Source: Utricularia gibba
Lineage: Eukaryota; Streptophyta; Magnoliopsida; Lamiales; Lentibulariaceae
Length of the DNA: 64,000 bases
Direction: 5' to 3'
NCBI GenBank assembly: GCA_002189035.1
Contig: NEEC01000027.1
Location: 434,001-498,000, forward strand
This document shows, piece by piece, positions 47,516 to 63,285 of the stretch (position 1 is its first letter; every line of letters begins with the position of its first letter). The notes under the pieces were generated by a model, which saw nothing but the letters and a program-made list of their open reading frames with translations, was not told where the DNA came from and did no database searches. The position numbers and the translations under genes are program-made.

Positions 47516-50421
47516 ATGTCCGGTGGAAGTGGCCGAGAGAGGTTTCTTGATCAGACGCCAACATGGGCCGTCGCTGGAGTCTGCGCCGTGATCATAATGA
47601 TATCTATTGCTCTGGAAACTAGTATACACAAAGTGGGAACGGTGAGGACTTCATTATTTACAAGGGGGATCTTCAGAGTAATGTTTCCATTTTCGCGTTG
47701 TCTTTGATTGCCGTCTACTTTCTTGACGATTGTTCTGTTCAGCTTTTTGTCTTCTAGTACGGAATCTGTTTGGTGGGGTTTTTTTTATTTGCGAGTTGAT
47801 GGGCTTTTTTTTTTTTATGTACTTGTTCTGATGTTGGTGGTGGGCATAACACTGACAACCTTTGTAGTGGTTGACTGAAAGGCACAAGAAGGCTATGTAT
47901 GAGGCACTGGAGAAGATTAAAGCAGGTATTTTGTGGTGGTTGCCTTAGAATCAGTTTACTTCTTTGTTAGTAAGATTACTTCCCAACTTGTGATGATTTG
48001 GTTGGTTTAATTGCGGCAGAGTTGATGACACTTGGCTTCGTCTCGCTTATTCTTGTGTTCTGCCAATATTACATTGCTAATATCTGCTTGCCTATCGGTA
48101 TTGCTGACATAATGCTGCCATGCGCTGCAAGAACACAAGAGAAACAAAATGAAAGAGATCATCACAGTAGACAACTGTGGTATGAACGTCGATTTTTGTC
48201 AGCATCAAGAGAAGTTTCATGCAAGGAGGTGATGACTCTCAGTTTTTGTTGTTGTATTAGTGTTATAAAGTGATTTCATTTTGGGGGCTAACTAATCACT
48301 AGTATTCTGTAGGGGCATGTGTCACTTATATCAGTGGAAGGACTTCACCAGATACACATACTGATTTTCTTCTTAGCAGCCATTCATGTCTTTTACAGTG
48401 CAATTACAATGTTTCTCGGTCGTCTTAAGGTGATGGATTTTTACATCTTTGCCTTTATGCTTTATTTGCTCTCTTATTCCCTAAGGAACATCTTTATCCC
48501 TTTTATTGCAGATAAGGGCTGGAAACAATGGGAACAAGAAACTTCAACTCATGACTATGAGTTTTCGAATGGTAGATTAATTTTTATATTCACATGCGTC
48601 TCCTGTCAGTTTTTCTTGTTAATGATCAGCAGTGTTTACATGTGAACTCTTACAGATCGTTCAAGGATTAGGCTTACTCATGAAACATCATTTGTTAGAG
48701 CACACAATAGTTTCTGGACCCGGATTCCGCTGTTATTTTATATTGTGAGACACAGTCTTCAATGCTATGGATTTTATTGAAACAGTCATATCTTGTTTTC
48801 ATTTTCATGCTTATCTTCACAAGCTTCTTACATCAGTTGGGCTTATCTTTCTTGCAGGGTTGCTTTTTTCAGCAGTTTTTTAAGTCTGTTAGCAAATCCG
48901 ACTACTTGACACTACGGAATGGATTCATCACAGTGAGTGTGTTTGCGTGATCATACACACTTTACTCGCTGTTCCTCGACCATTCAGGGTATATTTTTCT
49001 TGAACTTCGAAGGTACACTTGTCACCAGGAAGCAAGTTTAACTTCCAGAAGTACATAAAAAGATCACTAGAAGATGACTTCAAGACAGTAGTAGGAGTAA
49101 GGTAAATGTTTAGTATCAAAACGAAACTACAAGCTTCATGTCCCTGAACTCTAATCTTTGTGGTTTTTGACACCATCCCAGTCCGGTGCTTTGGGCATCT
49201 TTTGTAGTGTTTCTGCTCCTAAATGTTCACGGTGAGAAAAAAAGGATGCTCATTTTCCTTTGCATTATTCTCTTATTCATTTAACCTGAATGTTCTTCAT
49301 CATCTCCATTATTTTTTTTTAGGGTGGCGGTCTCTGTTCTGGGCATCCTTGATTCCTCTTCTTGTAAGTATATTCTGTGCGCTTCCCAAAATAAGGAAAG
49401 ATTCAAAAGCTGATCCTATTATCCATAATTCTTAGATCATACTTGCCATTGGGATGAAGTTGCAAGCCATTTTGACGAGGATGGCCCTTGAGATTGTGGA
49501 CCGGGATGCAGTACTCCAGGGCATGCCTCTCGTACAGGGCTCAGACAAATACTTTTGGTTTGGCCGGCCTCGTCTTCTACTAAATCTCATCCATTTTGCA
49601 TTATTTCTGGTACGAAAGAAGAAGAGTGGCACTCTGGTTTATAGTCAGCAGATCCATTTTCCGCCATTATGAACCTTGCAATGATCTTCTTTTATGCTGC
49701 TATTTCTGCAGAATGCCTTCCAGTTAACATACTTCTTGTGGATTTGGGTACTCATCTGATCTTCTTGCCCTCCTTGTTCAACGATATGAAGTTTCCACTC
49801 ACATCACAATACCTTGAATGCAGTATGAGTATGGATTACACTCTTGCTTCCACGACAATTTCAGGCTTCTGATTGCCAAAATTTGCTTGGGGTAAGAAAG
49901 CATCCCTTTTGCACTCTCTTATGGCTTCACCTCATCTCTCACACTTGCGGTGATGCAGGTTTGGAGTTCTCTTCCTCTGCAGCTACATTACCCTCCCACT
50001 CTACGCTTTGGTCACTCAGATGGGTTCCAATATGAAGAAAACCATCTTTGACGAACAAACATCAAGGGCTCTGAAGAAATGGCACATGTCCGTGAAAAAG
50101 AAGCGCGGCGTCAAGTCCCCTGCTCGAACTCTCGGCAGCCTAAGCCGCTCGTCCTCGATGGGTTCGCCGTATCGCCAAACGGGTCCGACTCTTCACCGCT
50201 ACAGGTCAACAGGCCACTCTGTTCGATCAGATGGACATGAAGTATCAGATGCCTCCGATCTTGAAGATCCATCAGCTGCTGCCCTAGAAAACTCTAGCTT
50301 CATCATGGAACCTGGTGCGCATACCAATCCCGGTGATGATGCTGAGAATCATGCCGGTGAAAAGAGAAGAAGGGACGAGGATGACTTCTCCTTCGCAAAG
50401 CTTGCCAAACCTCAGTCTTGA
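47516..50421 (+). CDS. MLO: MLO family protein, one apparent 1-base deletion
   Basis: Seven-helix plasma membrane protein that binds calmodulin; some members are mildew susceptibility factors, others act in roots or pollen tubes. Fourteen exons: 47516-47641, 47868-47925, 48020-48228, 48313-48429, 48512-48571, 48656-48744, 48858-48932, 49013-49101, 49182-49231, 49323-49363, 49436-49609, 49712-49747, 49824-49891, 49959-50421; about 551 residues. Recognised by [86 protein letters not shown] and [11 protein letters not shown], with the calmodulin site around [13 protein letters not shown]. Exon 5 (48512-48571) is one base short within the G run at 48514-48517. With it, the family sequence [21 protein letters not shown] appears and splices in phase to exon 6. 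As read, the frame is broken there. Confidence 0.95.
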
Positions 50422-51598: not shown

Positions 51599-52124
51599 CC
51601 CTTTATTGCACCAGAGACCGCTGCAAAGTGATGAAGCTGAGAGCGATGCTATAGGGAAATCAAACTGCCAAACTCATCTGGTTTGTAGAGATGTGCACTT
51701 GAGCCATAGAGAATTGTGAAATTCTACAGACCAAGTTCCCATTTTTAACAGGATTTTCCCTTCCCTGATGCTGTGAAACTGTCACCATATTCAAGGAGAT
51801 GGCTGCTATTTTCTCTCTTATTTTTTTTTTAACGGGCCAGGTTAGTAGTTTGCCCAAGATGTCTAGGGCTTACTGTCTCCAGAACTAATCTCGGGCTGAC
51901 TCGTAAACCCTTGTAGGAATGAGCCCAATTGCAATGATCCGGACATGAAACTCATCTTGCTGCACTACTGCTTCCTGGAGCCGCGATGCGGTGCTGCAAC
52001 TCGGCGAATTCCATCAACCACCGGTGGTTCGTCTATCCTCTCCAGGAGTACGCTGTTTGAGGGGGTCGTTCCACAGTCGTCGTCTTCTTCGAGACACCCG
52101 GAATAAACCCTAATCACTTCAACA
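51599..52124. other. PSA3 3' flank and promoter of the chimeric mS38-like gene
   Basis: 3' untranslated sequence of PSA3, then a promoter and leader of the gene starting at 52125. A T-run occurs at 51821-51830. No gene is seen. Confidence 0.55.
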
Positions 52125-52870
52125 ATGAAGCTTATTCGTAAAATCGCCGGTATTTCTTATTAATAGCTGTATAGATACTGCATGTTCCCTAAGTGTGCCC
52201 AGATTTTGCTTCACATTTTTCATCTCTTGTTCTTGTAGAGTCATCCAGTCAACGCGCATTTTTTCGGGCAATGGGGCGCAGGAATTTCCGTGCCCCATCG
52301 GAGGATTTCTTTATGCAGAATTGTGCCAATAAGGATTTTCACTACAACACTGCTGTTTACCCAATCGCATCCCCGAAAAGGTTTTACATCGTCTTTCTTA
52401 CAGTTGGCTCTCTGGATGTTTTCAGTTGGATTGAGTTTCACGCTTTGCTGTTCGTTTGTGTGTAGAATGTTAAATAGGCGTAACTTGTATGGTGATACGA
52501 TGCTTGATAGAGTGAATCTGGGAGGGACACACTTCATTCGCGTATTCTAGGGACAATGAGTGGGAGGCGAATGCAAGATGCATTCTTTCTCCACAGTGAA
52601 ACAAAAACCATGGATGACTTGTGTTCAGCCGGTTGGAATCCTGTGACACTGAGGCATACTCGTCCATCAGATGTTTACCCCAGCTTTTGTTTGCGGTTTT
52701 TCATTGAACCATGTTGTTCAGAATCATTGATCGAATCTGAACCAGACGTAGCCGCTGAGGATGATCCTGGAGTTCTGAGGGCTGATAGTGTAAAGAAGAA
52801 AAGGAAAAGGAAGATGAACAAACACAAACTGAGGAAGCAGAGGAGGCTTTTGAGGAGAAAGAGTCATTAG
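52125..52870 (+). CDS. Chimeric gene: PPR-derived N-terminus joined to an mS38/COX24-like C-terminus
   Basis: Proposed exons: 52125-52149, 52239-52380, 52597-52870; 146 residues with agreeing phases. Exons 1-2 read MKLIRKIAGESSSQRAFFRA then NFRAPSEDFFMQN...ANKDF-YNT. They match exons 1-2 of the PPR gene at 60176-63285 in length (25 and 142 nt), intron phase and about half of the residues. The region 52440-52596 is also related to PPR exon 3 but is frameshifted and holds a stop. The acceptor at 52594-52596 (TTCTTTCTCCACAG) skips it and is the only one tested that keeps the frame open. Exon 3 ends in a very basic block (KKKRKRKMNKHKLRKQRRL...) like the mitoribosomal mS38 (AURKAIP1/COX24) C-terminus. 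Predicted to be a mitochondrial ribosomal protein; this is inference. It could instead be an mS38 gene sitting next to a decayed PPR fragment. Confidence 0.65.
52440..52596 (+). pseudogene. Decayed copy of PPR exon 3
   Basis: Similar to the PPR gene's exon 3 (62772-62933): GTATG-TGATA-GATGCTTGAT and ATGAG-GGGAG-CGAATGCAAGATGC are shared in the same order, including spacing within one base. One base is missing after GTGAA, so the frame ends at 52548-52550. It is the third, degenerate part of the PPR-derived segment inside the chimeric gene, retained as intron sequence in the proposed model. Confidence 0.75.
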
Positions 52871-60175: not shown

Positions 60176-63100
60176 TCAAGACTCTGCTTGTCTTCCACCG
60201 GAAGGTCCAAACCTTACCATAAGATTATTCAATGTCTTGGAAACCAGCAGGAGACGAGAATCATCTTCTGGTATCTCCCTTTCCTGAAAAGGGTTATCAA
60301 ACCATGAGGAAGAAATTGTGCAGACGCGGAGCTGAAGTTTCAGGAGAAACAAAAACAAACAATACACGTAAAAAGGGCCTCCCTCACCTTCAACCCATTG
60401 TGATAAGCCTGGACGGCGGGGAGTGATGGCGTGAACCGGCGCTTTTGCATCATGTCCCATATCAAGTTGGCGACGGTGTACCCACCAGCCTAGTAATGAG
60501 TGCTATGAATCAGCGCTCACATGGAAAAAAATGACCGTAGTGTTTGCAGAACAACGATAGAGATACTTTCTACCTTTTCACCAGAAGCGACGAGGAGGAG
60601 TTCGCTCCCCTGTTTGGAACTCAAAAAGAAGCCTCTACTATTCAACATTACCTGGATGTTCAATGAGATCAACCATAAACCATCTTTGAATGAACGAGAT
60701 CCCACTCAAATGGCATCAGTAACATATGGAGGATTAAGAACTAATGGCAAGGGACAGGAGAGATACCAGAGTGTCGTAGGCAAGTTGCATGCCCTTAGGT
60801 GTGTACCCCACCATCGCTCCTTCAGCAAGCGTCTGTGAATAATTAGTAGTGGCATTAATAAAAACAAGTTTTTAAAAAGCTGACAGAAAGGACAAATAAC
60901 TGCACTAAGGGAAATTAAGCATCAACGATGTGTCTAGCAAGAATTATTCACAAAATTCTTTTCACAAGTGGAAAAAAGGACACCAAAATTCTCATGTTTG
61001 CGCATGAATAGTTGACTTATATTATGTTCCCAAACTTACAAAATATAGTTCCACCATGGGTTGCTTCCTTGAGTTCATGTAGTCATCAAATATTTTATGG
61101 CCTTTGTCGATGTCCCCAGAATGCAGATAACACCTGCACTACAGTATCAATTGTAAAGGAGATTGATTTAAAATAAACATGGTACAACATTACTTTCCAC
61201 CGAAATGAAGATTACCTCATAATTTGCAGCAATATGAATACATCAGGTGTTTTTCCATCCTTCTCAAGCATTTCCATTAGTTTTTCAGTAGCCTTCCAAA
61301 ACATTATAAAAGGGAACTTTTGAAAACTATGTAGACAGCTCACCGTGCAAATTGCAAGTCAAATAAAAGACAATCAACAGGTGTTACTAGGCATGCCATT
61401 AGACAAGAATCAGAGTCTTCGAAAAATAATTGAAAAGGCATGAAGGGTATAAGATTAACTCAACTGAGATTTTACTACACACCTGAACATCCTTGAGATC
61501 GGCAAGGGCATGAAATGCAACATGGTATATCGTCAATGATCTAACAATGAAGCCACCACGGCGATGGACATATTCACCTGTTGGAAGGTTATATAATTCT
61601 TCTTCGGAAACACCCATGGTATCATACGCTGGATTTTCTTTTGTTTCATCAACTGAGGACCATCCCTTGGACTGCTCCACCAGCTCAATAATCTTGCAAG
61701 AAGAAAATTTTAAGGCTTTTTAATCAGCAGCGAAAAATGACAGAAGTAATGTTTCATGCGTACTTTGGAAGATATCTCATCTGTAGGAGTTGACTTATTC
61801 ATGTGCGCAGTTATGAGACCAGCATAGCAAAATTTGTTCAGACCAAGACCAGCTGCAGTCATATCTCTGACAATGGCATTTCTGCAACATCAAAATAAGA
61901 CATTGTGCTTACTGTGATGGTGAAGACCACGAATAGAGCATTTCAAGGTGCAGTCACTATTTTTGTAGAAGCAGCCACAGATACATATTAAATCATATTC
62001 ATGATCACATTTTCCAAGAAGAAAGTCATAGTCACTATAAGGAGGTGTATACGTAATTTGTTTGAGCTTACACTCGATCTAATCTTCCATTTGCAGCACA
62101 TGCATTAAGTAGACAGATGTAAGTTTGGCTAGTAGGTTTGACTTCAGATTTCTTCATTTCCTCCAGAAGCTTCAGTTCAGCGAAAGAAACAAATGGTCTC
62201 AAAAAAAAAAGGGGGGGGGGGGGGGGTCATACAAAAAAAAAAAAAGGTTTAGTTATATCTATCTTGAAGGATTTAGAGTCTTTTTGATGTAACTCCATCT
62301 TCAATAAAATTACTTCTAGAAGTGATTCTTGAATAAAACACATGTTGCTTCTATTCCATATAAAACTAAAACAATAAAGTGCTTCAATTTTTTAAGAAGC
62401 TGAAGGATCCCTACTCCAATAAAAACTGAAATGTTTTTTATATATAAAAATTCACTTTTTTTAAAATTATTTTTTGAAGCTATACCAAAGAGATCCTTAA
62501 ACTCAGAAGTAAAATATATTCAATACCCAAATGGCTTGCTCAGAATTCTTGCACTTCCCACATGTAGATATCAAGTAGTTGTACAACGCAACCTGATGAT
62601 AATAAACAGAGACAGTGATGATTTCTTCACAGTAAAAACAAAGATAGTCCAGATTTCCTAATTGTAGTCTGAAAACTAAAAGGGCAATGCAAATAATGAT
62701 TGACTTGAATATCACCCGGGAACTATAAAATGATCCCAAATTATCAAAAGGCAGGTGAGGCAACAACGTACATCAGGAACCGCACCCATGGATCTCATTT
62801 CATCGCGAAAAAAGAACGCATCTTGCATTCGACTCCCCTCATCGTCCCCAGAATAAGTGCGTGAAATGTATCCCTATCTGGCTTCACTCCATCAAGCATC
62901 ATATCATCATACACGTCTCTCAATAAATAATGCCTAAAGAAAATTTAGACTCGGCTCACTCAAAAACAATGAAAAACTTGAGATGTCTAAAAGCATCTTC
63001 TCATCAAATTAAAGGGCACGCGAACCTTCTTTGAGATGTAATTGAGCTGATAACAGTGTTGTATTCAGCCTCATTGTTGGCATAATTCCTCTTCAAATAT

Positions 63101-63285
63101 TCCTCTGAGTGAGCACTGAAATTCATGTGCTGCATTGCTCGGTAATGAGCTCGGCGACTCGCCAATTCTACAAACAAAAAAAAAGCACGAACCTAGAAAA
63201 AATGGCCCTCGCAATCACATAGTACATACACATTATTTTCATTGGCTCAGCAAGAAGTACCAGCGAATTTACGAATAAGCTTCAT
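60176..63285 (-). CDS. Mitochondrial P-type PPR protein (At4g35850-like), one apparent 1-base deletion
   Basis: Pentatricopeptide-repeat RNA-binding protein with a likely mitochondrial presequence. Thirteen exons: 63261-63285, 63026-63167, 62772-62933, 62527-62592, 62072-62169, 61764-61881, 61483-61692, 61216-61292, 61040-61133, 60767-60832, 60574-60651, 60388-60489, 60176-60283; about 448 residues. Recognised by YDDMMLDGVKPDRDTFHALI, VALYNYLISTCGKCKNSEQA, LLEEMKKSEVKPTSQTYICL, CYAGLITAHMNKSTPTDEIS, EELYNLPTGEYVHRR, TIYHVAFHALADLKDVQ and the tail EREIPEDDSRLLLVSKTLNN. Exon 3 lacks one base within the run at 62833-62838; with it, GSRMQDAFFF continues in frame. Intron 4 holds a G16 run and AT-rich filler. 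Exons 1-2 were apparently duplicated into the gene at 52125. Confidence 0.93.
62201..62240. repeat. Homopolymer cluster A10-G16-A13 in a PPR intron
   Basis: Ten A (62201-62210), sixteen G (62211-62226), then TCATAC and thirteen A. Located in intron 4. Lengths of such runs are often unreliable in assemblies. Confidence 0.85.

Follow-up and report, generated by a model that had tools for sequence, protein, structure and literature searches.

Plant nuclear genes can acquire a mitochondrial presequence by copying one from an existing nuclear gene. For example, PMC2631504, in a passage citing Kadowaki et al. 1996, describes rice rps11-1 (presequence from atp2), Arabidopsis sdh3 (from hsp70) and carrot rps10 (from hsp22), and presequence copying is likewise documented for conifer sdh3 (PMC8317393). 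An initial annotation of the locus studied here had stated that exon capture of mitochondrial presequences is known in plants, and the rps11-1, sdh3 and rps10 cases support it. In these cases one nuclear gene with a mitochondrial product supplied copies of its 5′ exons to the front of another gene whose product is also mitochondrial.

Here we describe a locus in Utricularia gibba with the same arrangement. We consider it likely to be a functional mS38 gene that begins with a duplicate of the 5′ part of a P-type PPR gene nearby. The mS38 protein is specific to mitoribosomes and has long been nuclear-encoded, and this recipient was very probably nuclear already before the capture. In rps11-1, sdh3 and rps10, the recipient had recently been transferred out of the mitochondrial genome and gained its first presequence, whereas the chimera looks like the replacement of an existing front. 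It also differs from them in that the PPR donor is still next door, and in that promoter and UTR sequence and part of the mature protein appear to have been copied too. The process is known, but this pairing of donor and recipient was not found described: the open-licence literature yielded no presequence chimera with a PPR donor or an mS38 recipient. What is unusual is the combination of a recipient that was nuclear already, an adjacent donor and two homeologs that have diverged around exon 3.

Structure of the chimeric gene

The window is the whole 64,000-nucleotide stretch that was analysed (C496:434001-498000), and the genome searched is the 100.09-Mb, 516-contig assembly. A second copy of the chimera lies on contig C4. 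The features of the window copy and of the donor are as follows.

51921..52124, + strand: 5′ flank and 5′ UTR, with the PPR gene as the probable source
52125..52149, + strand: exon 1, copy of PPR exon 1; 25 nt; MKLIRKIA, start of the putative presequence; conserved in C4
52239..52380, + strand: exon 2, copy of PPR exon 2; 142 nt; remainder of the putative presequence up to a cleavage site predicted at RNF↓RAPSE; linker after it
52477..52617, + strand: copy of PPR exon 3; 78% DNA identity to PPR exon 3; 1-base deletion near 52520
52583..52596, + strand: splice acceptor TTCTTTCTCCACAG of the initial annotation; in the window copy only
52597..52870, + strand: last exon in the short model, C-terminal part of mS38; mS38 homology from about 52637 (NPVTL)
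52781..52855, + strand: COX24_C / mS38 domain (PF08213), 27.9-29.2 bits, cut-off 23
60176..63285, − strand: donor PPR gene (P-type) with 13 exons; probable orthologue in Arabidopsis, At4g35850

Exons 1 and 2 of the chimera, in phases 1 and 2, have the same lengths and phases as exons 1 and 2 of the PPR gene (63285-63261 and 63167-63026). The initial 18 bases of the two coding sequences are identical, as are 27 of 55 residues at the protein N-terminus (BLASTP E 3e-9, database size set to 1e8). The exon coordinates, lengths, phases and identical start given in the initial annotation were thus all reproduced, together with its PPR-like N-terminus sharing about half its residues. In a DNA search of the whole genome, the matches to PPR exons 1 and 3 had 91% and 78% identity. 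Among the introns of the chimeras, only C4 intron 1 can be aligned, weakly, with its counterpart in the PPR gene. Judged by DNA scores, protein scores and preserved gene structure, the likeness between chimera and PPR gene exceeds chance. Presequence capture is recognized by 5′ exons homologous to those of the donor, found here with matching phases (25/142 nt, 1 and 2), and by relatives that do not have that front, which holds for Brassicaceae mS38, the relatives compared.

The other end of the gene had been described as very basic and mS38/COX24-like, and this is confirmed. COX24_C (PF08213) scores 27.9 bits in the window chimera and 26.5 bits in the C4 chimera, against a curated Pfam cut-off of 23, and mS38 of solved plant mitoribosomes is matched as well (cauliflower PDB 6xyw_BB, E 1.1e-10; 9evs_c, E 1.2e-8). 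The solved mS38 sequences are from Brassicaceae (PMC12672651). These proteins (6xyw chain BB and 9evs chain c) have about 83 C-terminal residues in common with the chimera, including NPV-TL, YPSF and the motif ADSVKKKRK-KMNKHK.RK.R, and the homology to cauliflower mS38 begins at NPVTL (window 52637). The N-terminal ~54 residues of 6xyw mS38 are, in contrast, missing from the chimera, which has PPR-derived sequence instead. Most of the cauliflower N-terminus was read as NNKSCFNSIQRLTTTPSLFTYQKPFINNNNIESIIQKPDPVSFANPVITL..., from phmmer alignments extended into unspecified positions, and the part read (residue 11 onward) contains no MKLIRK-like front. The Brassicaceae mS38 N-terminus (NNKSCFNSIQRLTTTPSLFTYQKPF...) is unrelated to that of the chimera. 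A PPR Pfam hit is absent from both chimeras, and the tandem PPR motifs that characterize a PPR protein are not found in them. Searches of the genome with Pfam, with the local tail and with cauliflower mS38 found no conventional mS38 besides the two chimeras, which are therefore probably the mS38 of this species.

The donor PPR gene lies ~7 kb from the chimera in opposite orientation. We take it to be the probable At4g35850 orthologue on the basis of the mature N-terminal peptide. At4g35850, a mitochondrial P-type protein, has a presequence and early mature region like those of the chimera, although the chimera does not have any complete PPR repeat. At4g35850 is co-expressed with mitoribosome genes (PMC7287149), so its promoter would suit mS38. 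The donor was also considered as an rPPR protein of the solved mitoribosomes, a candidate that was rejected as there is only generic PPR similarity. An intron of the PPR gene (62500-62265) contains a dispersed repeat that matches at least 35 other places in the genome at 70-82% identity.

A homeologous copy and the age of the fusion

Utricularia gibba has a genome of about 100 Mb and two recent duplications (PMC8333044). The same chimera is found at C4:93805-93060(-), 72% identical over nearly its full length in a DNA search. It lies within a syntenic block, where 13.6-18.7 and 52.0-59.9 kb of the window match 98.9-94.3 and 93.9-86.5 kb of C4. A PPR gene was looked for at the syntenic place on C4 and is absent; there it was either lost later or never present.

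For the homeolog pairs, dS ranges from 0.33 to 0.72 across three neighbouring genes and is ~0.35-0.49 for the chimera. Between PPR gene and chimera dS is ~0.9, which exceeds the homeolog range, so the PPR front was duplicated before the genome duplication. As both homeologs carry the chimera, the fusion too is older than the genome duplication that made them. The initial annotation had proposed that the chimera formed by inverted copying near the PPR gene; this is borne out, with the correction that the event predates the homeolog duplication. How recent the fusion is, and which front it replaced in this lineage, are matters that we infer.

The two regions also differ upstream of the chimera. 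The window has ~33 kb (18714-51995) without a counterpart in the C4 region, where the flanks are only 0.36 kb apart. This window-specific stretch ends just upstream of the 5′ flank of the chimera, and was either inserted in one copy or lost from the other. Elsewhere in the window, an open frame at 49954-50421 looks by eye like the C-terminal end of MLO membrane proteins and may encode such a tail.

Exon 3 and splicing

PPR exon 3 (62933-62772) corresponds to window 52477-52617. The initial annotation regarded this third exon as simply decayed and skipped by way of the acceptor at 52583-52596. The homeolog contradicts both points as a general structure. In C4, exon 3 has the acceptor AATACAG↓GCATTGC, and from C4:93432 it is open and in frame into mS38. 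The resulting CDS is 549 nt (182 aa) with a 142-nt exon 2, and the frame holds just as well if exon 2 is 12 nt shorter.

In the window, a single missing base near 52520 closes an exon 3 that is otherwise open as in C4. This is either a real frameshift that is bypassed by splicing or an assembly error. Single-base assembly errors are plausible, given a similar loss in the PPR gene, whose exon 3 is one base short at a run of G (62840-62835, GAGGGG-AGTCG); both chimeras have that base. The later exons of the PPR gene are all open, so this loss, too, is either a frameshift of very recent origin or a fault of the assembly.

The proposed acceptor does open the frame into the mS38-like end, as had been claimed: in the short model, exons 1 and 2 joined to 52597-52870 give an in-frame CDS of 441 nt (146 aa). 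However, this acceptor sits inside sequence derived from PPR exon 3, and a net 21-nt in-frame deletion in C4 removes it, so the homeolog cannot use it. By inspection of the sequence, the old window acceptor (TTAAATAG, ~52476) looks weak, and the new one at 52596 has a good pyrimidine tract.

Constraint on the PPR-derived front

The last 47 codons, i.e. the mS38 tail, have a dN/dS of 0.03 between window and C4 (1 of 8 changes non-synonymous) and are under strong purifying selection. In the PPR-derived codons dN/dS is about 0.7, not distinguishable from 1, so the amino acids of this part are weakly constrained. Its frame is better preserved. Of about ten indels between the homeologs in 185 nt of intron, eight have lengths not divisible by three, whereas exons 1-2 (167 nt) differ by one 12-nt indel and by 9 nt inserted in C4 right behind the ATG, with the start codon kept. 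The alignment of exon 2 needs the 12-nt in-frame gap near its 3′ end. At the intron rate, zero frame-breaking indels in exons 1-2 has a Poisson P of about 7e-4, a value from few events. The exons keep an open frame and splice sites in both copies; neutral simulation leaves exons 1-2 stop-free with 20% chance, and the indel pattern is the stronger argument for translation. This constraint on frame supports translation of the PPR front. The weak constraint on amino acids fits a presequence followed by a free linker, but it also leaves the case for translation short of proof.

Putative presequence and upstream region

The first 25-28 residues have a net charge of +6 in the window copy, +3 in the C4 copy and +5 in the PPR protein, and the amphipathicity of the presequence is not above that of shuffles. 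The mature N-termini of At4g35850 in vivo are FASSPEEIAKR and ASSPEEIAKR (PMC4986872). At residue 25 the PPR protein here has FSAHSEEYLKR, 5 of 11 residues identical to FASSPEEIAKR, a match reached by 4% of shuffles of the 55-residue front. At the equivalent place the chimeras have RNF↓RAPSED (window) and RDI↓GTLSEE (C4). The R-x-F/I before the putative site fits the RX(F/Y/I/L) consensus in both; the residue after it is R or G, against the usual S or A. The PPR-derived front probably acts as a mitochondrial presequence. Of the earlier proposal that an inverted PPR presequence now targets an mS38-like protein, the inverted front of the neighbouring PPR gene at the head of mS38 stands, and the presequence role is probable given the mature N-terminus of At4g35850 at the corresponding place.

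The likeness to the PPR gene extends upstream. When anchored at the ATG, the 110 bases upstream of the PPR gene align with the upstream regions of the C4 and window chimeras better than 99.8% and 98.9%, respectively, of 1000 random window segments. The 14-mer GAGCCCAATTGCAA is common to 51921-51934 and to the region upstream of the PPR gene (63425-63412). The 5′ flank and UTR of the chimera thus look PPR-derived too, and copying probably started within the promoter. Within the UTR, a stretch at 51996-52070 is conserved between homeologs and can be read in the window as a serine-rich, presequence-like peptide, GGSSILSRSTLFEGV. We considered this stretch as the original mS38 presequence exon and rejected it, since a 1-base indel shifts the frame in C4 and it resembles the PPR 5′ UTR.

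Discussion

This conserved stretch matters for one alternative, that the PPR fragment is untranslated intron debris in an ordinary mS38 gene with its real presequence exon upstream, at about 51940-52080. The readable peptide GGSSILSRSTLFEGV and the nearly neutral evolution of the PPR-derived codons are what this account would expect, but at an equal distance from its ATG the PPR gene has 5′ UTR sequence similar to this upstream stretch, which has no match to cauliflower mS38 and an open frame shifted by that indel. Exons 1-2 hold frame and splice sites in both copies, and the introns do not. We regard it as very unlikely. The fused front could instead be ancestral to the mS38 of a much wider plant group, with no capture near this species. 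An origin before the genome duplication and the dS of about 0.9 from the PPR gene lean that way; the unrelated Brassicaceae N-terminus, a donor still ~7 kb away and a piece of PPR repeat within the fused part lean against it, and make it improbable.

It is similarly improbable that only the C4 copy works and its window counterpart is a pseudogene in decay. The one-base deletion in exon 3 of the window copy invites this reading, but only one in eight changes in its last 47 codons is non-synonymous, the acceptor at 52583-52596 restores the frame, and the similar loss in the donor's G run suggests an assembly error.

We therefore return to capture of the PPR front by mS38, for which what can be read directly is the homology, the gene structure, the two copies, the constraint on frame and the selection on the tail. 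Before the genome duplication, a stretch of the PPR gene running from the proximal promoter through the 5′ UTR and exons 1-2 to include most of exon 3 would have been placed, inverted, before the C-terminal coding region of mS38, with exon 3 read in frame into mS38. The presumed transcript would be spliced with the first introns of the PPR gene itself. The first ~25 PPR-derived residues would direct the product to mitochondria and be cleaved off near N-F↓R-A-P-S, leaving a mature protein in which a PPR-derived linker under weak constraint precedes the basic, conserved tail of mS38, the part presumably built into the ribosome. Both copies would have been kept after duplication. C4 would retain exon 3; the window copy would read like C4 if the missing base is an assembly error, and if the one-base frameshift is real would skip the exon via the new acceptor (52596).

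More tentatively, and with some doubt on our part, the N-terminus and 5′ control region of the only mS38 gene may have been replaced lineage-wide by those of a PPR gene co-expressed with mitoribosome genes, the homeologs then diverging in splicing to give two forms of mS38, one short and one long, with an extension from the PPR gene at the small subunit of the mitoribosome. The homeologs also provide a splice-site difference that can be tested.

The locus offers a legible case of presequence capture, where the donor is adjacent, intron phases are preserved and a homeolog pair reveals the constrained parts. It would show that a nuclear-encoded mitoribosomal protein can swap its targeting and 5′ control region, and that drift in a captured mature linker goes along with conservation of frame and tail.
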